Of a stretch of DNA of 48,177 bases, positions 28,120 through 35,622 are shown piece by piece. A program made the position numbers and the translations under genes. Source of the stretch: Sphaerochaeta sp. GTDB lineage: Bacteria; Spirochaetota; Spirochaetia; Sphaerochaetales; Sphaerochaetaceae. The first letter of the stretch is position 1, and every line of letters begins with the position of its first letter. The notes under the pieces are model-generated. The model had not been told where the DNA came from. It searched no databases and worked only from the letters and a program-made list of their open reading frames with translations. The stretch covers positions 1-48,177 of the forward strand of contig JAGYOG010000019.1 in assembly GCA_018399495.1 (NCBI GenBank). The letters are read 5' to 3'.

Positions 28120-28141
28120 CTACCATTTCTCTTTCATCAAA

Positions 28142-28168
28142 GGCCCTTCCTCGGAGGGGTCTATATTT
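28142..28168 (+). terminator. Probable terminator after purA
   Basis: GGCCCTTC pairs with GAGGGGTC (8 bp including G-U pairs) around a 4-nt loop, followed by TATATTT. The U-run is weak. Confidence 0.55.
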
Positions 28169-28204: not shown

Positions 28205-28266
28205 GTTATTGACATATGCCGGTAACCTCACTATAGTAAAGATAGTTACTGACATATGTCGTTAAC
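28205..28266 (+). promoter_or_regulatory. Promoter with twin palindromic operators before the metal-cofactor cluster
   Basis: TTGACA (28209-28214) and TATAGT (28232-28237) with an exact 17-bp spacer. Two 22-bp sites occur at 28205-28226 and 28245-28266: GTTA, two bases, GACATATG(T/C)C, two bases, TAAC. Site 2 has a perfect GACATATGTC core. Their starts are 40 bp apart, near four helical turns. Site 1 covers the -35 and site 2 covers the region just downstream of +1, a layout expected of a repressor that binds co-operatively. The DUF134 protein two genes downstream is the obvious candidate binder. Confidence 0.85.
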
Positions 28267-28291
28267 AATCTTACTACTAAGGAGGCATAAT

Positions 28292-28534
28292 ATGCCAAGA
28301 AGAAATGGAACAGGCCCTTTGGGCTACGGACCACTTACAGGAAGAGGCATGGGTAATTGTCGTGGCGGAGCCGGAGTTGGCTACGGAATGGGACGCGGTG
28401 CTGGATTCGGCCGAGGTCTCGGCTGGGGAATGTATGCACCTCCCGTCGCTCCTATTTCCCTTGCTGAACGCAAGCGCCTGCTTGAGGAAGAACTCAAACA
28501 ACTTGATGCTCAGATGAAAGAAAGCAACGAGTAG
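28292..28534 (+). CDS. DUF5320-type Gly/Arg-rich small protein
   Basis: An 80-residue protein beginning MPRRNGTGPLGYGPLTGRGM, rich in Gly, Arg and Tyr up to about residue 50, followed by a charged helix (LAERKRLLEEELKQLDAQM). This build is typical of DUF5320 proteins, which accompany NifX/NifB-like and Mrp genes in anaerobes. Their function is not known; a disordered basic head plus coiled coil suggests a binding or scaffold role. AAGGAGG lies 6 nt before ATG. Confidence 0.8.
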   Translation: MPRRNGTGPLGYGPLTGRGMGNCRGGAGVGYGMGRGAGFGRGLGWGMYAPPVAPISLAERKRLLEEELKQLDAQMKESNE

Positions 28535-28542
28535 GAGAAGCT

Positions 28543-28926
28543 ATGCCCCGTCCACGCAAATGGAGAAACGTTTGTGCACTTCCCCAAATAACCAAGTTCG
28601 GGCCCCTTGGGGCCCCCTTGGATGAGACCCCATCCATTATCATGACCGTTGATGAATATGAAACCATACGCCTCATCGACCAAGAAGGATTGACCCAGGA
28701 GATGTGCGCTGGGCAGATGAATGTTGCCAGGACAACAGTCCAAGGCATTTATGAAAGTGCCAGAAGAAAACTGGCAGAGTCGCTGGTGGAGGGCAAGTTG
28801 CTCTTCATTGAGGGTGGCGAATACCACCTGAATGACCATAGTGGTCCCCATCGCTACGGCTGTGGCCGTGGATGTAGAATGGGTCGTGGTCGCCACCAAC
28901 ATAGACAAGGAGATATACCGGAATGA
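28543..28926 (+). CDS. DUF134 (UPF0251) DNA-binding regulator
   Basis: A 127-residue protein starting MPRPRKWRNVCALP, the DUF134 signature, followed by a helix-turn-helix region (EYETIRLIDQEGLTQEMCAG then MNVARTTVQGIYESARRKL) like sigma-factor region 4. The C-terminal tail is rich in His, Cys and Arg (RYGCGRGCRMGRGRHQHR), suggesting metal or cofactor sensing. The gene sits behind the paired palindromes at 28205-28266, so autoregulation of the cluster is likely. DUF134 function has been little studied; the regulator call is from the HTH pattern. Confidence 0.85.
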   Translation: MPRPRKWRNVCALPQITKFGPLGAPLDETPSIIMTVDEYETIRLIDQEGLTQEMCAGQMNVARTTVQGIYESARRKLAESLVEGKLLFIEGGEYHLNDHSGPHRYGCGRGCRMGRGRHQHRQGDIPE

Positions 28927-29285
28927 TTGTAGCCATACCCGCAGAAGAAAAGAGCTTGGACAGCGCCATTTGCGTCTCGTTTGGGCGGGCCCCCATTTAT
29001 TGTCTTTATGATACAGAGAAAGAGACAAGCACATTTATAGATAACAAAGCAGCTGAGGCCTCAGGGGGGGCAGGTATCCAAGCCGCTCAATTTCTGGTTG
29101 ACCAGAAGATTGACAGCTTGATCACCTTCCGCTTGGGGGAAAATGCTTCCAGGGTGCTGAGTGCAGCAAACATCAGCATTCTCAAAGCGCTTAACCTGAG
29201 CATCGCCGACAATATTGAAAACCTCCTGGAAGGCACCCTAACCTCCTTGAACGAGGTCCATCCTGGATTTCATTATGGGCACTAA
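28923..29285 (+). CDS. NifX/NifB-family cofactor-binding protein, first copy
   Basis: A 120-residue protein of the dinitrogenase iron-molybdenum cofactor (NifX/NafY/orange protein) family. Hallmarks: IVAIPAEEKSLDSAICVSFG, RAPIYCLYD, then SGGAGIQAAQFLVDQKIDSLIT. Members bind metal clusters without catalysis; the Desulfovibrio orange protein holds a Mo-Cu sulfide cluster. There are no nif structural genes here, so nitrogen fixation is not implied. Overlaps DUF134 by 4 bp and the next ATPase by 11 bp. Confidence 0.88.
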   Translation: MIVAIPAEEKSLDSAICVSFGRAPIYCLYDTEKETSTFIDNKAAEASGGAGIQAAQFLVDQKIDSLITFRLGENASRVLSAANISILKALNLSIADNIENLLEGTLTSLNEVHPGFHYGH

Positions 29286-30144
29286 AGCTACAATAGCAAT
29301 CCTCAGTGGTAAGGGAGGTACCGGAAAAACCTTGGTATCTGTAAACCTTGCCGCTGTAGCGGCTAACGCAACCTACATTGATTGCGACACGGAAGAACCA
29401 AACGGACATATCTTTATTAAGCCCACCATTGTAAATGAATATGTTGTCACGGAACCAAAACCAGTGGTGAACCAAGATCTTTGTGACGGTTGCCGCAAGT
29501 GTGTGGACAATTGTGCTTTCAATGCCTTGGCGTTCATAGGAAAAAATCTCTTGGTCTTCAATGAGATTTGCCACTCCTGTGGACTGTGTACGTATATTTG
29601 CCCGAAAGGGGCACTCCATGAAGAACAGCGTCCATTGGGCATTGTAAAACGAGGACGAAAAAATGGAATGACCTTCCTCTCCGGGGAGATGAAAGTGGGG
29701 GAAAGTTCTGCAGTTCCCATCATTAAGGCTCTTATGAGGGAACAGCAAACCGATCTTGTAATCATTGATAGCCCCCCTGGTAGCGGATGCTTGGTAACAG
29801 AGACGGTCGGTAATGCTGACTTCTGCCTCTTGGTTGCCGAACCCACTATTTTTGGGGCACATAACCTTGCGATGGTCCACGAGCTGGTAACCCTGATGGG
29901 TAAGCCCTCTGCAGTACTCTTGAACAAGACCCAGGAGGGGGAAAATCCCAGCGAAATCTACGCAAAAGAACATGGACTCAAGATTATTGGTTCCTTACCC
30001 TACGACGAGCATTTGGCTCTTCTCACCAGTGACGGATTGCTAGCTGCCGAGGAAGATAAGCACTATCACACGTATTTTAAAGAACTGCTTTCAGCAGTAG
30101 TACAGGAGGCTAGGCATGCATCAAATTCTGATCCTCAGCGGTAA
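29275..30144 (+). CDS. MinD-family ATPase with inserted ferredoxin domain, first copy
   Basis: A 289-residue P-loop ATPase. The deviant Walker A is SGKGGTGKT (11-19). A double 4Fe-4S ferredoxin insert covers about 66-112, with Cys70, 73, 76, 80 and Cys99, 102, 105, 109. The second half has IIDSPPGSG (Walker B region) and LLVAEPTIFGAHNLAMV. Such proteins occur in pairs in orange-protein clusters and probably couple ATP to electron or cluster handling; biochemical function is not established. It overlaps the second copy by 29 bp. Confidence 0.9.
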   Translation: MGTKATIAILSGKGGTGKTLVSVNLAAVAANATYIDCDTEEPNGHIFIKPTIVNEYVVTEPKPVVNQDLCDGCRKCVDNCAFNALAFIGKNLLVFNEICHSCGLCTYICPKGALHEEQRPLGIVKRGRKNGMTFLSGEMKVGESSAVPIIKALMREQQTDLVIIDSPPGSGCLVTETVGNADFCLLVAEPTIFGAHNLAMVHELVTLMGKPSAVLLNKTQEGENPSEIYAKEHGLKIIGSLPYDEHLALLTSDGLLAAEEDKHYHTYFKELLSAVVQEARHASNSDPQR

Positions 30145-30991
30145 GGGAGGAACAGGCAAAACCACGGTGGCCAGTGCGTTCATCAAACTCAGCGATGTCA
30201 AAGCCTATGCCGATTGCGATGTCGATGCACCAAATCTTCATCTAGTGATGGGCTCCTATGAACAGGAGCAAAAGAAAGACTATATGGGCTTGCCCAAGGC
30301 GGTCATTGACCCAGATCTTTGTATCAGCTGCAACAAGTGCTATGAGGTATGCCGCTTTGATGCCATCAAACCAGGAAATCCCTACCAGGTGCTCCCCATT
30401 GCCTGTGAAGGATGTGGCTACTGCATCCATGTTTGTCCGGTAGGGGCAATCCACAGTGAAGAAGCAAAAGTTGGAGATTTAAAGCTACTTACACGGAAGG
30501 ATGAGCTATTCTCAACCGCAACACTCCTGATGGGTAGTGGTACAACCGGAAAGCTGGTTACCGAAGTAAAGAACCAATTGAAGGAAGTAAGCAAAGAACA
30601 CGAAGTTGCTATTCTTGACGGCAGTCCTGGTATCGGATGCCCGGTAATCGCCTCATTAAGTGGAGTAGATTTGGCTCTCATGGTTGCAGAACCCTCAGTC
30701 AGTGGATTATCCGACTTAAAACGGGTGCTTACCAGTGCAAAACAGTTGCAGGTTCCAGTGGCTGTCATTGTAAATAAATATGATACCAATGAGCGAAAAA
30801 CTGCAGAGATTGAAGTATACTGCTATAAAGAGGGAATACCTTTCCTTGGAAAGATTCCCTATGACAAGATGGCAGCAACCGCAATCAATACCAATAGGAC
30901 GTTGGTCGAAATTGAAAGCCTGGGAGCAGAGGCAATCAAGACCATCTATGAGAAAACCTTACGGTTGATGAAGGAGCGTATCCACACATGA
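30116..30991 (+). CDS. MinD-family ATPase with inserted ferredoxin domain, second copy
   Basis: A 291-residue paralogue of the preceding protein with the same order: Walker A SGKGGTGKTT (8-17), a double 4Fe-4S insert with Cys69, 72, 75, 79 and Cys97, 100, 103, 107, then ILDGSPGIGCPV and LMVAEPSVSGLSDLKRVL. ATG at 30116 follows GGAGG by 6 nt even though it lies inside the first gene. The pair probably forms a heterodimer, by analogy with related ORP-cluster ATPases. Overlaps the MBL-fold gene by 4 bp. Confidence 0.9.
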   Translation: MHQILILSGKGGTGKTTVASAFIKLSDVKAYADCDVDAPNLHLVMGSYEQEQKKDYMGLPKAVIDPDLCISCNKCYEVCRFDAIKPGNPYQVLPIACEGCGYCIHVCPVGAIHSEEAKVGDLKLLTRKDELFSTATLLMGSGTTGKLVTEVKNQLKEVSKEHEVAILDGSPGIGCPVIASLSGVDLALMVAEPSVSGLSDLKRVLTSAKQLQVPVAVIVNKYDTNERKTAEIEVYCYKEGIPFLGKIPYDKMAATAINTNRTLVEIESLGAEAIKTIYEKTLRLMKERIHT

Positions 30992-31827
30992 AAATAACCA
31001 CATTGGTGGAGAATACCACGAGAAATACAAACCTTGGATCAGAACACGGGTTAAGTCTCATCATCGAAGGAAGTCAGAAAACCATGCTCTTCGATATGGG
31101 GGCAAGCACCTTGTTTTCTGATAATGCAGAAAAACTCGGGGTCGATCTAAAAAAGGTCGACCTTGCCATCCTCAGCCACGGTCACTATGACCACGGAGGC
31201 GGAATAAAGACATTTTTCAACATAAATCATGTCGCTCCTCTGTATGCTAGAAAAGAGGCTTTCGGGTCTTTCTACTCTGAACGAAGTGATGGAGACTACC
31301 ACTACATCGGAGTCGATCAAGACTTGTTGAGGAATAACCGACTCATTTTTACCTCCGCACTCACACCGGTAGCTGATGGAATATTCTTGTTCAGCAAGGT
31401 GGAAGGCAAACGATTTGTCCCCACCGGAAACAAGAGCCTGTTCAAGAAGGAAGGAGAAACCTATAGTGTTGATTCCTTCACCCACGAACAGTACCTTGCA
31501 ATCAAAGAGGGAGATGAGCATGTCTTGATAAGCGGCTGTTCTCATCGCGGGATCGTGAATATCCTGGATGCATTCCACGATGAGTTTGGCACCTACCCTA
31601 CCCAGGTAATCGGAGGCTTCCACCTCTACAACCACCGAACAGGCAAACCCGAGGACCCAGAAGTTCTCGACCAGATTGCTGCGATTCTTCTAAAAAGCAA
31701 AGCAATTTTCTATACTTGTCACTGCACAGGAGAAGAAAACTACACCTACCTCAAGGAAAAAATGGGAGATTCCATTCACTATCTTGCAGGCGGAGACATC
31801 CTCGAATTCAGAGCCCATAAGGAGTAA
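30988..31827 (+). CDS. Metallo-beta-lactamase-fold protein
   Basis: A 279-residue protein with the dinuclear metal motif HGHYDH (His64, His66, Asp68, His69), SGCSHRG (later His ligand) and GGFHLY. The family includes the uncharacterised MBL proteins that sit in metal-cofactor clusters of anaerobes and archaea. Reaction unknown; a hydrolase or a flavin-free oxidoreductase role are both conceivable. Its position within the cluster, with 4-bp overlap upstream and 4-bp gap downstream, indicates a shared pathway. Confidence 0.88.
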   Translation: MKITTLVENTTRNTNLGSEHGLSLIIEGSQKTMLFDMGASTLFSDNAEKLGVDLKKVDLAILSHGHYDHGGGIKTFFNINHVAPLYARKEAFGSFYSERSDGDYHYIGVDQDLLRNNRLIFTSALTPVADGIFLFSKVEGKRFVPTGNKSLFKKEGETYSVDSFTHEQYLAIKEGDEHVLISGCSHRGIVNILDAFHDEFGTYPTQVIGGFHLYNHRTGKPEDPEVLDQIAAILLKSKAIFYTCHCTGEENYTYLKEKMGDSIHYLAGGDILEFRAHKE

Positions 31828-31831
31828 TACC

Positions 31832-32614
31832 ATGGCACAACCCAATACAGATATGAGAGCACATTCCAAAACAGGAAGCACCATCGGCAATATCATTGCT
31901 GTCGTCAGCGGAAAGGGGGGAGTGGGAAAATCTTCGGTAACAAGTCTACTCGCTTCAGAAATGCGTAGACGAGGTCACAAGGTTGGAGTACTCGATGCAG
32001 ACATCACCGGATCCTCCATTCCAAAGACGTTCGGTATCCACAGCAAGGCAACCGGAGAAGAAGGAAGAATTGAACCGGCAGTAAGCAAGAACGGCATCAA
32101 GATTATCTCAACCAATATGTTGTTGGATAGTGAGAGCGACCCGGTCATCTGGCGCGGTCCCTTGATCGCAAACACGGTCAAGCTCTTCTACACCGATGTT
32201 AACTGGGAAGAGTTGGACTACCTCTTTGTTGATATGCCCCCGGGGACGGGAGACGTTCCCTTGACGGTATTCCAATCCCTTCCTGTTGATGGGATAGTTA
32301 TGGTAACATCTCCCCAGGAGTTGGTTTCCATGGTGGTGGAGAAGGCAGTGAACATGGCACAGAAAATGGAGGTATCCATTGTAGGGTTGGTGGAGAACCT
32401 CTCCTACTTCCTCTGTCCTGACAACCAAAAGAAATACAAGGTATTTGGGGAAAGCCATATTGAGGTAGTAGCCGAGCACCACGAGATCAGTGTACTTGCA
32501 AAAATACCCATCGACCCACTGTTGAGCGAAGCATGTGATAATGGTACGATTGAAGCATACCAGGGTGCCGATCTTAGCGGTCTCTGTGACATATTGGAAT
32601 CAAGGGAGAAATAA
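31832..32614 (+). CDS. Mrp/NBP35-family P-loop ATPase
   Basis: A 260-residue Fe-S cluster carrier-type ATPase: Walker A VVSGKGGVGKSS (24-35), DADITGSSIPK (Walker A-prime region), then IWRGPLIANTVKLF and DMPPGTGDVPL, all characteristic of ApbC/Mrp. In the usual CPxC cluster-binding motif the second Cys is replaced: VENLSYFLCPDNQKK. ATG at 31832 has AAGGAG 8 nt upstream, preferred over the longer ORF that overlaps the MBL gene. It probably loads or transfers a metal cluster to the NifX-like proteins next to it; that is inference. Confidence 0.9.
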   Translation: MAQPNTDMRAHSKTGSTIGNIIAVVSGKGGVGKSSVTSLLASEMRRRGHKVGVLDADITGSSIPKTFGIHSKATGEEGRIEPAVSKNGIKIISTNMLLDSESDPVIWRGPLIANTVKLFYTDVNWEELDYLFVDMPPGTGDVPLTVFQSLPVDGIVMVTSPQELVSMVVEKAVNMAQKMEVSIVGLVENLSYFLCPDNQKKYKVFGESHIEVVAEHHEISVLAKIPIDPLLSEACDNGTIEAYQGADLSGLCDILESREK

Positions 32615-32617
32615 GGA

Positions 32618-32974
32618 ATGCTGAAAGTAGCAGTAGCAAGTGAGAAGAAAAACGTGTGTGGCCATTTTGGACACTGTGAGAGCTTTGAGGTCTTTGAAAC
32701 TGAAAATGGAAAGGTCCTCAAGCATGACAGTATGCCAAACCCAGGACATCGCCCCGGTTTTTTGCCCAACTTCCTAAACGAAATGGGTGTAAACACCATT
32801 ATCAGTGGTGGAATGGGTGGAGGTGCTGTGGAGATATTCAATGGACACAACATTGAAGTTATTATTGGAGCCAAAGGTTCCATTGATGAAGCCGTGAAGG
32901 AATATCTGGCAGGAAATCTTGCCTCCACAGGAAGCATTTGTCACGAACATGTCCATCATGATGAGTGCGAATAG
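32618..32974 (+). CDS. NifX/NifB-family cofactor-binding protein, second copy
   Basis: A 118-residue orange-protein-like cofactor binder: KVAVASEKKNVCGHFGHCES, GGMGGGAVEIFNGHNIEVI, and a His/Cys-rich tail GSICHEHVHHDECE likely to bind metal. It differs from the first copy in its CGHFGHC motif and tail. Last gene of the cluster, 4 bp after the Mrp gene, followed by a terminator. Confidence 0.9.
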   Translation: MLKVAVASEKKNVCGHFGHCESFEVFETENGKVLKHDSMPNPGHRPGFLPNFLNEMGVNTIISGGMGGGAVEIFNGHNIEVIIGAKGSIDEAVKEYLAGNLASTGSICHEHVHHDECE

Positions 32975-32996
32975 GAGAACTTTCTTATTCTGTATG

Positions 32997-33035
32997 GATA
33001 CTCTGTCTTGTACAGGGTATCTATTTCTATTTTCT
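32997..33035 (+). terminator. Terminator of the metal-cofactor cluster
   Basis: GATACTCTGT pairs with ACAGGGTATC (one G-U) across CTTGT, then TATTTCTATTTT. A 10-bp stem right after the last gene of the cluster. Confidence 0.75.
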
Positions 33036-33059: not shown

Positions 33060-33664
33060 GCTGTTTTCATCAATCTAAGAATCAATGGAAGTAGCACATT
33101 ATTCGATGATCGGTTAGAAATCACATCCCCAGGAATGTTGATTGGGGGCCTCACTATTGAAGATCTTAAAAACGGATGCAGCAAACCAAGAAATCGTGCT
33201 CTAGTGACCGCCTTTACCTATATGAAGATTATTGAACAATGGGGTAGCGGGATTCCTAGGTTTTTTTAAAGCTTTATGCAAGGAAGCAGGGCTTGCTGAA
33301 CCAGAATTAAGCAGGGGCTGGAGGAAGTTTCAGGGGTAAAGATTTTCCGAAAACAACAAGCTACCCCCAAGCTACCCCAAGCTACCCCCAAGCTACCCCC
33401 AAGCTACCCCAAAGCTACCCCCCAAGCTACCCCAAGCTACCCCAAGCTACCCCAAGCTACCCCCAAGCTACCATTGAATTTTTGCTTTCCTATTGCAGTA
33501 TCCCAAGGACTAGAGAAGAAATGATTAAAGCTATGAACTTGAATGATAAGAAAATCTTTTTCAAAAAGACTACATCATTTCTTCTTGCGTCAGGTAAACT
33601 GAGAATGACACTACCAGAAAAACCTCGAAGTCCTCTGCAAAGGTATGTAGCGACAGGTAAGTAA
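33060..33664 (+). pseudogene. AAA_4/HATPase-type ATP-binding regulator, broken
   Basis: Between 33096 and 33258 one frame encodes DRLEITSPGMLIGGLTIEDL, then SKPRNRALVTAFTYMKIIEQWGSGIPR. This is the conserved C-terminal ATPase segment of RecG-like (AlbA/HATPase_c_4) putative transcriptional regulators. A run of seven Ts at 33262-33268 ends the frame; one T fewer would continue into FKALCKEAGLAEPEL. After a stop, a tandem repeat (33358-33472) encodes Pro/Lys/Ser-rich linker. The frame from 33482 then encodes the winged-helix end REEMIKAMNLNDKKIFFKK and ASGKLRMTLPEKPRSPLQRY. The N-terminal half is missing. Decayed, or phase-variable only in its last part. Confidence 0.75.
33358..33472. repeat. 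Minisatellite of AAGCTACCCC units
   Basis: Ten full units plus a partial one. Unit lengths are 11,10,11,11,10,13,10,10,10,11, differing mostly in the C-run (4 to 6). None is a multiple of three except by accident, so copy-number or C-tract slippage changes reading frame downstream. It separates the ATPase and winged-helix parts of the broken regulator. Not CRISPR: no spacers. Confidence 0.95.
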
Positions 33665-33778
33665 AACAAACTGGGCAGTAATTGGGGATGCTTGTAACTA
33701 CTCCTTATTTCCAGCATAACGGAACATACCAACAACAGTTTCAGGAGTTTTTCATGCATAAAAGTTCGGGCACTCTTT

Positions 33779-35113
33779 ATGGTGCTCAACGTTCACCGCT
33801 TATCGCTCGCCTTCCTTTCTATTGTGGCCCATGGTTGGGTAATTCTCATTGCTGGGGCTGTTGAGGTCTTGGCAAGTATCCCTGGGCAGACCATGGGAGT
33901 GTCAGTATTTACCAACCATCTTGTACCTCACTATGAATATATATCCCGGGTCGGTCTCTCTTCCGCCTATATGGTAGGAACTCTGGGAAGCAGTCTTATC
34001 ATCAGTTATGCAGGAGTATATTTGGCCGATATGGAGCCAGACCGGTTGCTGTTTCGAGAGAAGCCGTCTTTTTTAGGCCTGTTTCAGCCTGGCCCTTACA
34101 TTTTCTCCAGCAACATTACATCCACATACTCGCTTCTATCCAGATTCATCAAATCGCTGCCTTTTTGCGGTAATCGGATTTGGATTCTTCGGTATCAGGT
34201 TTTCGGACAGGAGTACTGACGTTGGTCAGCCGTGTGGCATGGTAGCGAAATAGTTTCAGTACCCATAGAGGGCTTTAACCCCAGTTAATGGGGCTCGACA
34301 TCCTTCAGGATTCTCCTGTACCGCAGCCTCTACAACACTTGATCAAATCAATTTGGGTGGAAATCATCGCTGGGAATACTCTCTCAGCGCTTAGCATATT
34401 CTCTTCTTGCCCGCTGTTCTCATGTTTTACCGGGCGACCCGGAATCATGTGGTCTAGAAATGGAGCGAGGCTTGCGAAACCAAAGGAAAATCGTTCAAGT
34501 CACCGGTAAAGAAGATGCCCATGTGGAGCTAGATCTAAAAAGGATGCAAAGAGGCACGCCTACTGGGTGATTCTCCTCTCCTTGGGTTACTGGTCCTTGT
34601 TTCAATACAGCATTCACCTTCCATATTGTTTCCATCTATGGAGAATTCGGCATTGATGCAAGTAGGCAGTGAGCCCGCTTCTTCTATTTCCATTGTCTCA
34701 GTGATCTCCCGATTTTTGGGAAGTTATCTCAGTGACCGGATCGCCATCAAGTACCTCTACATTGCCTACGGTCTCTCTCCCTGATCATAGCCTCGATTGC
34801 AATGATGATTCTTCATACAGCAGTAAGGTACTTTGCTCGTCATCATCGGCTACGGAATCAGGACCGGGTTGTTTGGTATGCTCAACATTGTCACCTGGCC
34901 CAAGCTTTATGGAAGAAAACATCTTGGTGCAGTAAAAGCGGGTTTGCCATGTCGATTATCGTAGCAGGAAGCGCCATCGGTCCATGGGCATTCAGCATGG
35001 TGTATCGTTTCACCCACTCCTACCAAGGAACCGGGGTAATAGGTCTTGCCGTCTCTTCCTTCATCATGCTTGCAATTCTCTTCATCCCCTTCTCAACCGA
35101 GAAGAACACATAA
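33779..35113 (+). pseudogene. Major facilitator superfamily transporter, multiply frameshifted
   Basis: Three or more frames each hold recognisable MFS pieces: VHRLSLAFLSIVAHGWVILI and SRVGLSSAYMVGTLGSS (33785-34030); YWVILLSLGYWSLFQYS (about 34560); FLGSYLSDRIAIKYLYIAYG (about 34715-34775); and FAMSIIVAGSAIGPWAFSMV to the end at 35113. The order and hydrophobicity fit one about 430-residue permease of the oxalate/formate or CynX-like kind, but the substrate cannot be told. At least four frameshifts and internal stops make it non-functional. A terminator hairpin follows at 35162. Confidence 0.75.
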
Positions 35114-35161: not shown

Positions 35162-35181
35162 AGGAGGCGTTGCCTCCTTTT
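35162..35181 (+). terminator. Terminator after the MFS remnant
   Basis: AGGAGGC-GTT-GCCTCCT is a perfect 7-bp stem with a T4 run (last stem T plus three). Confidence 0.65.
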
Positions 35182-35221
35182 CCGCCCCAAGGGACGGGGT
35201 ATCTTACCTTGCTTTCCCTGC

Positions 35222-35283
35222 ACTCGCTCGGGAGAAGACCCATCATGATGGTTCCTTTCCTCTCGCTCCGTTGGGGAATGAAA
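35222..35283. repeat. 62-bp dispersed repeat, copy 2
   Basis: 97 percent identical by eye to 1-62 (two mismatches). It holds the perfect palindrome CCATCATGATGG and ends within the first codons of the DksA-like gene, so it would supply that gene's leader. Confidence 0.85.
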
Positions 35284-35622
35284 CAAGAAGATGTTGAGCG
35301 AATGAAAGAGGTCATTGTGGCATTGCTTGCCCAGTTGAACCATCATGCAGAATTCCTTGATCTAGAGACCCAAGCCATCGCTCCATCGTGTAGCCTTGGG
35401 AGGATTACCAGAATGGAAGCAATTAGTGAACAAGCAATCAGTACACATGCCCAATCCTTGAACCAGAAGAGAATCATAGGGCTTGAGAACGCGCTGCAAA
35501 GGATTGAAAAGGGGACTTATGGCACCTGTATCCGTTGCCAGGGGGAGATTCCCCTAGGAAGACTGGAATTGGTACCTGAAGCACTGCTCTGTGTACAGTG
35601 TGCTGATAAGAAGCATCGTTAG
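35278..35622 (+). CDS. DksA/TraR-type zinc-finger protein
   Basis: A 114-residue protein: N-terminal helical part with QTKR-like charged helices, then ALQRIEKGTYGTCIRCQGEI and ALLCVQCADKKHR. The four Cys (C-x2-C, 17 residues, C-x2-C) form the C4 zinc finger of the family. DksA/TraR proteins bind RNA polymerase in its secondary channel and adjust rRNA and biosynthetic promoters with ppGpp. The first ATG (35278) lies inside the repeat with only weak GGGG before it; ATG 35302 is an alternative. It converges with the PHP gene, sharing 4 bp. Confidence 0.8.
   Translation: MKQEDVERMKEVIVALLAQLNHHAEFLDLETQAIAPSCSLGRITRMEAISEQAISTHAQSLNQKRIIGLENALQRIEKGTYGTCIRCQGEIPLGRLELVPEALLCVQCADKKHR

Follow-up and report, generated by a model that had tools for sequence, protein, structure and literature searches.

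A widespread orp-related operon of anaerobes with its own regulator and operator

This report concerns eight closely packed genes in a 48,177-nucleotide stretch of DNA from Sphaerochaeta sp. (contig JAGYOG010000019.1 of assembly GCA_018399495.1), referred to here as the window. The genes lie on one strand (+) at 28292-32974 in the order DUF5320-DUF134-NifXa-MinDa-MinDb-MBL-Mrp-NifXb, and they make up a real and widespread operon that is related to the orange-protein (ORP, orp) operons and has its own regulator and operator. Our overall reading, to which we give a probability of roughly 0.6, is that we are dealing with a DUF134-type relative of the orp operons, one that would encode an ATP-driven set of metal-sulfur handling proteins, be autorepressed and have iron-sulfur as its cargo. 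As judged from sequence comparison, the regulatory part of that reading appears strong, and an iron-sulfur cargo seems the better of two options.

Many anaerobes have members of DUF134 and DUF5320, two families classed as of unknown function, and the operator, its relation to the recognition helix of DUF134 and the conserved cysteines of that protein make the function of these families testable. For this common anaerobe operon, the expected cargo moves at the same time from molybdenum-copper to iron-sulfur, in a field where documentation of how anaerobes build iron-sulfur (Fe-S) centres has been called poor (PMC6345978).

The promoter and its operator

Upstream of DUF5320, at 28205-28266, lies a double 22-bp palindrome of the GTTATTGACATATGYCRRTAAC type that forms part of a sigma70-type promoter (Table 1). 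The coordinate 28205, at which the earlier note on this DNA began the cluster, is the first base of operator O1 and not of any gene. A promoter scan by itself does not rise above chance: the region has 5 promoter-like sites, and its shuffled versions have 6.6 on average. The operator core TGACATATGNCR occurs twice in the window's genome (G000; 2.6 Mb in 92 contigs, 88.6% complete), both times at this operon, and the reversed control occurs once. Over 110 TTGACATATG sites, a set that takes in loci selected by the motif, the consensus reads GTTATTGACATATGtCA.aAAc...gTATAAT, with the -35 hexamer inside the palindrome. The best -10 element (at least 4 of 6 matches) begins 16 or 17 bp past that hexamer at 93 of these sites, and the second CATATG mostly lies 36-40 bp downstream of the first. 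Since a near-consensus promoter is overlapped both at its -35 hexamer and at its start point, repression of the operon promoter is suggested and not activation, an argument made from the position of the sites only.

Joint occurrence of operator and DUF134

Within the genus, 22 of 26 genomes contain the pattern TTAYTGACATATGYC, with 39 matches in all (a full palindrome scores once per strand) and none for the reversed-pattern controls; DUF134 occurs in exactly these 22. Two genus genomes (G015 and G035) also contain lone DUF5320 genes with an operator of their own (L167 3396-3692; L175 3738-4034), which suggests that DUF5320 is a regulon member by itself.

Similar results were obtained further afield. 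The pattern TATTGACATATGYCR is present in 33 of the 40 genomes behind 40 of the best 80 DUF134 loci (51 matches against 3 for the controls) and in 64 of 391 genomes of the class of G038 (88 matches against 13 control matches). DUF134 was found in 167 genomes of this class sample, 150 of them above the family cut-off, and the operator accompanies it in 57 of the 167, compared with 7 of the 224 genomes without DUF134 (Fisher 5e-17, kinship ignored). In the 70 regions drawn from the class sample, with four genomes already seen left out, there are 71 site clusters, 56 of which stand at most 600 bp upstream of DUF5320 (27), DUF134 (24) or NifXb (5). The 15 clusters with no operon gene nearby are about as many as the reversed control predicts (13 matches); one of them, L267, belongs to an orp-type operon headed by a MerR gene. 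Remote sites before an SRP54/YlxM pair, a peptidase, a CRP-type regulator and a DUF364 gene were taken as chance or unproven.

Loci that had been found by the DUF134 protein alone, a test with less bias, tell the same story. The exact core is present in 44 of 69 upstream regions and a version with at most one mismatch in 56 of 69, where Markov shuffles give an expectation of 0.4. These regions come from 68 of the 80 loci, the others having been dropped by operon, label, length or duplicate rules, and because the 80 loci are those nearest to the window's DUF134, both figures hold for that subfamily. DUF134 is the likely binder of the operator.

The DUF134 protein

The DUF134 family also goes by the name UPF0251, 'predicted DNA-binding', and a COG neighbourhood of these operon families is known in databases. 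Among titles and abstract beginnings for DUF134, DUF5320, UPF0251, COG1342, COG1149 and COG1433, none dealt with an operator or a function, and neither autoregulation nor a helix-operator code of DUF134 was seen in the literature listings searched.

The window's protein scores 75.4 bits against PF02001 (cut-off 27). Its AlphaFold2 model has a confident core at residues 31-90 (block mean pLDDT 86-96) and low-confidence ends, the whole model reaching a mean pLDDT of 69.9 and a pTM of 0.57. Foldseek returned sigma region 4 domains (5fgm, 3hug, 2h27) and DeoR (7bhy) as the best matches, headed by region 4 of SigR (5fgm; E 0.049, probability 1.00, root-mean-square deviation 0.6 A over 47 columns). 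The E-values are weak, none reaching 0.001, with a probability of about 1.00 and a TM to target of about 0.7. DUF134 is accordingly best described as having a predicted helix-turn-helix fold like that of sigma region 4.

Among distinct DUF134 proteins from protein or family searches, and allowing at most one mismatch, the class of operator covaries with the start of the recognition helix. Where the helix begins with T, S, V or A followed by TV, the TGACATATGTCA class is found in 71 of 102 cases, the TGTGCATATGCACA class in 1 and neither in 30; the survey includes 40 loci picked among DUF134 matches with no known operator nearby, which lowers the 71/102 figure. Helices that begin with RGTF go with TGTGCATATGCACA in 9 of 9 cases, RPTF with TGAACATATGTTCA in 2 of 3 and RSTF with TGCACATATGTGCA in 2 of 3. 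An operator for RQTF-type proteins was sought and found in 0 of 14, and the scan gave none for single proteins with GTV, PTV, QTV or ATC helices. L278 (RPTV) has a half-matching site, and in L047 (RGTV) a TGTGCATATGCACA site overlaps the annotated start.

The subfamily has five conserved cysteines: C11 in 55 of 55 rows, C55 in 53, C97 in 54, C107 in 51 and C111 in 53. On account of these residues, sensing of a metal or an Fe-S cluster by DUF134 is plausible but unproven.

The operon and its genes

Each of the eight genes has a Pfam match above the family cut-off, the successive gaps are 8, -4, -11, -29, -4, 4 and 3 bp, and a single transcript is probable. The packed order given in the earlier note stands, as does its finding of two NifX-like binders in so far as both belong to PF02579; the two are not equivalent, however, NifXb being an MrpORP domain and NifXa resembling IssA and ORP. 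The genome has a single DUF134 gene and three PF02579 genes, two of them in the operon; the product of the third (G000:C9:28034-28306, L048) is more distant. MinDa and MinDb each combine a deviant Walker A motif, GKGGTGKT, with two CxxCxxCxxxC ferredoxin motifs, and the Walker A motif of Mrp, GKGGVGKS, fits the deviant GKGGhGK[ST] of Mrp/NBP35 ATPases. The hairpins listed on either side of the operon come from a scan that found 4 terminator-like structures against a shuffle mean of 5.2.

Table 1. Features of the operon region, in window coordinates
Feature	Position	Strand	Remarks
Terminator-like hairpin after purA, upstream of operon	28141-28162	+	Consensus match only
Operator O1	28205-28226		GTTATTGACATATGCCGGTAAC; includes -35 hexamer
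sigma70-type promoter	28209-28237	+	TTGACA-17-TATAGT; 11/12 consensus matches
Operator O2	28245-28266		GTTACTGACATATGTCGTTAAC; centre 40 bp from O1; at expected start site
DUF5320 protein	28292-28534	+	PF17253 E 3e-13; 80 aa; Gly/Arg-rich cationic N-part (isoelectric point, pI, 11.4; one Cys), acidic and probably helical C-part
DUF134 protein	28543-28926	+	PF02001 E 5e-21; 127 aa; predicted autoregulator
NifXa, IssA/ORP-type PF02579 protein	28923-29285	+	PF02579 E 4e-17
MinDa, MinD-type ATPase	29275-30144	+	Inserted 2x[4Fe-4S] ferredoxin motif (Orp3/Orp4 type)
MinDb, second MinD-type ATPase	30116-30991	+	Ferredoxin insert
MBL-fold metal-dependent hydrolase	30988-31827	+	PF00753 E 6e-12; 2p4z E 1.5e-37
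Mrp/Nbp35-type ATPase	31832-32614	+	PF10609 E 3e-87; CxxC altered to CPDN
NifXb, C-terminal Di-Nase domain of MrpORP	32618-32974	+	PF02579 E 1e-22; NF041136 positions 265-365
Terminator-like hairpin downstream of operon	32994-33024	+	Consensus match only

NifXb is the split-off second domain of MrpORP. Mrp matches positions 3-234 of NF041136 and NifXb the part shown in Table 1, each below the 450-bit cut-off of that two-domain model. NifXb bears CGHFGHCE as well as C108 and C117, and in an alignment of 58 loci rows plus the window, repeats included, H16, F17, G18 and C20 of the CxHFGHCE motif are conserved at 1.00 and the first cysteine at less than 80%.

The altered cysteine site of Mrp is common. 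In 50 other distinct Mrp proteins of the loci it reads CPDN in 30, CPDS in 1 and CxxC in 19, revealing an Mrp lineage in which a cysteine of the cluster site is gone. Among distinct operons, CPDN or CPDS occurs in 19 of 19 that have MBL, compared with 12 of 31 that do not (Fisher 8.8e-6, kinship ignored); a first count that included repeats gave 20/20 and 14/35. The Mrp tree (51 rows) is poorly resolved, with 23 of 48 inner branches open, and a single origin may underlie the association. The MBL protein has an HxHxDH motif; over 43 rows (42 from loci, 40 of those distinct) its metal-type residues H64, H66, D68, H69 and H212 and also C184 and C246 stand at 1.00, and H186 and H245 are likewise conserved.

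Conservation among anaerobes

Fourteen loci of the same genus were fetched around DUF134. The complete eight-gene operon is present in five (L031, L037, L040, L041 and L044), L045 has seven genes with no DUF5320 match, and L029 and L042 stop at contig ends. In L046 (7262-8461) Mrp and the Di-Nase domain are fused as in MrpORP, in a 399-aa frame with CPDN, and fused and split forms coexist within one genus. The four genus genomes that lack DUF134 (G004, G010, G012 and G013) are fragmented assemblies, two of them still with one PF02579 gene, and part of the absence may be due to assembly.

Elsewhere in the class, in eight loci of other families, DUF134 stands alone or the sets are shorter and rearranged. 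A scan of 84,980 species with a DUF134 alignment gave 556 confirmed loci, the best 80 of which were used. These 80 are mostly from Clostridia and other Bacillota, and also from Synergistaceae, Anaerolineaceae and one metagenome-assembled genome of Acidobacteria. NifX or MinD is found in 58 of them, both in 52, DUF5320 in 43, Mrp in 32 and MBL in 26, in a set where many loci are cut by contig ends and where genes close to the end of a locus may escape the script that assembles operons. Taking all loci together, the complete eight-gene order came out 12 times, each instance distinct.

The linkage of the operon genes is beyond chance, recurring in the genus, in Clostridia and in other anaerobes, among them Synergistaceae and Anaerolineaceae; the comparison of gene order that the earlier note had called for thus came out in favour of a conserved system. 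What could not be kept is the notion of a system special to one spirochaete, as the operon is widespread in anaerobes and clostridial DUF134s are as near as those of genus members. The window's DUF134 is 58-72% identical to 54 clostridial-type sequences and 61-65% to those of four genus members; for eight sequences from other families of the class the range is 33-42%. On these figures, transfer between the window's genus and Clostridia seems likely.

The cargo

An absence of nif genes was claimed in the earlier note, and the likeness to ORP brought up a cofactor of the Mo-Cu type. The absence is borne out for PF00148 (NifD/NifK type), in a search that did not extend to NifH or NifB: none of the 26 genus genomes has a match above cut-off, and 9 of them, G000 included, have weak matches of 18-23 bits against a cut-off of 28.6. 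A cofactor of the Mo-Cu type is not supported. Only G003 and G016 of the 26 genus genomes have MoaA (PF06463) above cut-off, and ModA (TIGR01256) passes its own cut-off in just these two, which leaves out G000; in 10 more, ModA matches lie far under the cut-off (20-31 bits against 62.5). DUF134 is present in 22 of 26, including G001, G002, G005, G011, G017, G018 and G037, which have neither MoaA nor ModA; the assemblies of these seven consist of one or two contigs and are 96-99% complete. Because the two markers are confined to 2 genomes and DUF134 is found in 22, a Mo-Cu cofactor appears an unlikely cargo, molybdate or tungstate transporters other than ModA not having been searched. In G003 (C20) and G016 (C1), MoaA and ModA lie within about 2 kb, and the pair is likely an acquired Mo module.

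Two loci touch on molybdenum in another way. In a Desulfosporosinus genome, an operator-like site (L170 3372-3386) precedes a molybdenum hydroxylase operon, and in another genome (L163/L080) the DUF134 gene is followed by xanthine-dehydrogenase-like genes. Mo sensing by DUF134, which these loci had raised, was demoted to a rival explanation, as stray sites are about as frequent as in the control and 24 of 26 genus genomes have neither MoaA nor ModA above cut-off.

The solved structures nearest to NifXa are MTH1175 (1eo1; 4e-14), 1rdu (4e-11) and the D. gigas ORP (2wfb; 5e-9). NifXa itself is acidic (pI 4.7). The first 52 residues of DUF5320 include 19 Gly and 6 Arg and no acidic residue (pI 11.4), and the part before the last 30 residues has a median pI of 10.9 over 84 distinct homologues. 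MTH1175 has been named an IssA-type protein, and the tail of IssA is described as cationic, with a pI of 10.7, and rich in Gly and aromatic residues (PMC5524996). The closeness of NifXa to MTH1175, together with the tail-like character of DUF5320, gave rise to the idea of a 'split IssA'.

Twelve distinct loci (of 13 fetched, as L162 repeats L053) have an IscU-like gene within the operon, and the four such genes that were scanned are all NifU_N. MrpORP carries Fe-S in vitro, and its second (Di-Nase) domain held a [3Fe-4S] cluster (PMC6345978). An iron-sulfur cargo, for assembly or storage, is thus the favoured interpretation over molybdenum-copper, as far as sequence can speak to it. As a side observation, three distinct loci (L206 1187-3268, L211, and L070, which equals L172) contain an energy-coupling factor (ECF) transporter S-component with an adjoining 357-389-aa protein, one example of which had no Pfam match; in L206 and L211 this pair follows the NifU_N gene in the DUF134 operon.

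A proposed mechanism

A DUF134 dimer very probably binds each CATATG palindrome and so represses its own near-consensus promoter: one dimer would sit over the -35 hexamer and the other about 40 bp downstream at the start site. The chances are perhaps slightly better than even that the cysteines of DUF134 hold a metal or an Fe-S cluster whose loss or gain relieves repression, so that the operon would be made when iron-sulfur is out of balance. The single transcript would then yield a small ATP-driven metal-sulfur handling set, in which NifXa and the separate cationic DUF5320 might hold anionic iron-sulfide in the manner of a split IssA, and the two ferredoxin-bearing MinD ATPases, Mrp and NifXb might load, reduce and pass on Fe-S units. 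A more sweeping proposal would make DUF134s in general cysteine-liganded, sigma-region-4-like Fe-S autorepressors with subfamily-specific CATATG palindromes, controlling a split-IssA iron-sulfide store served by ferredoxin-MinD and CxxN-Mrp ATPases; we offer it tentatively, as something we would sooner doubt than accept.

Conflicting observations and alternative explanations

Several observations weigh against an autorepressed iron-sulfur operon. The exact operator is missing in 110 of the 167 class genomes with DUF134, most of which were not examined. The helix code is unclean, RGTV going with TGACATATGTCA in L236 and L237, both found through the motif, but with TGTGCATATGCACA in L047. The window's DUF134 keeps C11, C55, C107 and C111 and has N97 at a position that is cysteine in 54 of 55 rows. 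Five genus loci (L033, L036, L038, L039 and L043) lack Mrp and keep the other genes. Replacing both CxxC cysteines of MrpORP strongly lowered cluster binding (PMC6345978), and in CPDN one of these cysteines is gone, an argument against simple carriage of the Mrp type. No NifX protein with a Gly/Arg-rich tail was found (0 under the filter used), and the site in L170 and the DUF134 neighbourhood of L080/L163 would fit a link to molybdenum.

That link matters for the possibility that this is a true orange-protein system, in which NifXa would bind a Mo-Cu-S cluster as the D. gigas protein does and the other genes would build it. NifXa does match 2wfb, the MinD/Mrp/Di-Nase kit is as in Desulfovibrio, and an operator precedes the Mo-hydroxylase operon of L170, yet MTH1175 and 1rdu match NifXa better than ORP does, and the restriction of MoaA and ModA above cut-off to two genus genomes, neither of them the window's own, makes such a system improbable, ModA being the one molybdate/tungstate transporter searched for. 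A cell-division or septum-placing complex, with the metal centres as a redox switch, is a little less improbable and still unlikely: the MinD-type ATPases would suit it, and ORP has been described as putatively acting in cell division or septum positioning (PMC6345978, PMC3897727), but NifX, Mrp and DUF5320 indicate metal-sulfur handling, IscU-like genes recur in the 12 loci mentioned above, and no division gene was noticed among the recurrent operon neighbours. Finally, the operator might belong to another factor, with DUF134 a mere neighbour that has another role. L267 (4077-8001), where a MerR gene takes the place of DUF134 and the operator is kept, is the case that would favour this; its source genome, G254, nevertheless has DUF134 elsewhere, and a separate factor seems very improbable when the 22 genus genomes with the operator are also the 22 with DUF134 and the operator changes along with the recognition helix.

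Downstream surroundings

Just downstream of the operon, at 33357-33472, lies a tandem array of about 11 copies of CAAGCTACCCC. Short overlapping frames at 33682-34935 resemble by eye a transporter-like open reading frame of 445-471 aa that is intact downstream of the operon in L037 and L041, and the region is probably a decayed gene; its portion at 33779-34216 had no Pfam match. A DksA/TraR-type zinc-finger protein is encoded at 35170-35622.

Comparison with known systems

The closest known system is the orp1/orp2 region of Desulfovibrio vulgaris (DVU2103-DVU2109), whose genes have been reported as anaerobe-specific (PMC6345978, PMC3897727). By description of the D. vulgaris side, both have a pair of MinD-type ATPases, each with two [4Fe-4S] motifs; both also have an Mrp ATPase and two Di-Nase domains, one of which makes up a protein by itself (in the window NifXa, which matches ORP less well than it does MTH1175 and 1rdu). 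Against a bound S2MoS2CuS2MoS2 cluster like that of the Desulfovibrio system weighs the absence of MoaA and ModA above cut-off from 24 of 26 genus genomes. The ORP-like kit recognised in the earlier note is thus a conserved, related metal-sulfur set, and the likeness stops short at several points: MrpORP is split into Mrp and NifXb, CPDN stands for CxxC, and DUF5320 and MBL are added. D. vulgaris has two divergent operons where the window has one, and these are governed by sigma54, DVU2106 and IHF, in contrast to the sigma70-type promoter and DUF134 of the window. The proposed replacement of sigma54 control agrees with the lack of an enhancer-binding protein gene in the operon, no sigma54 promoter scan having been run.

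Two single proteins offer further comparisons. MrpORP (NF041136; fused two-domain form, Orp9) is one chain with CxxC, whereas the window has two polypeptides from separate genes, with CPDN; the HFGHCE of the CxHFGHCE motif is present in NifXb (PMC6345978). IssA, the thioferrate storage protein of Pyrococcus furiosus, is likened here by description: the best Protein Data Bank match of NifXa is IssA-type, and DUF5320 is cationic and contains Gly and aromatic residues as the IssA tail does, but the PF02579 domain and the tail form one chain in IssA and are products of separate genes here.

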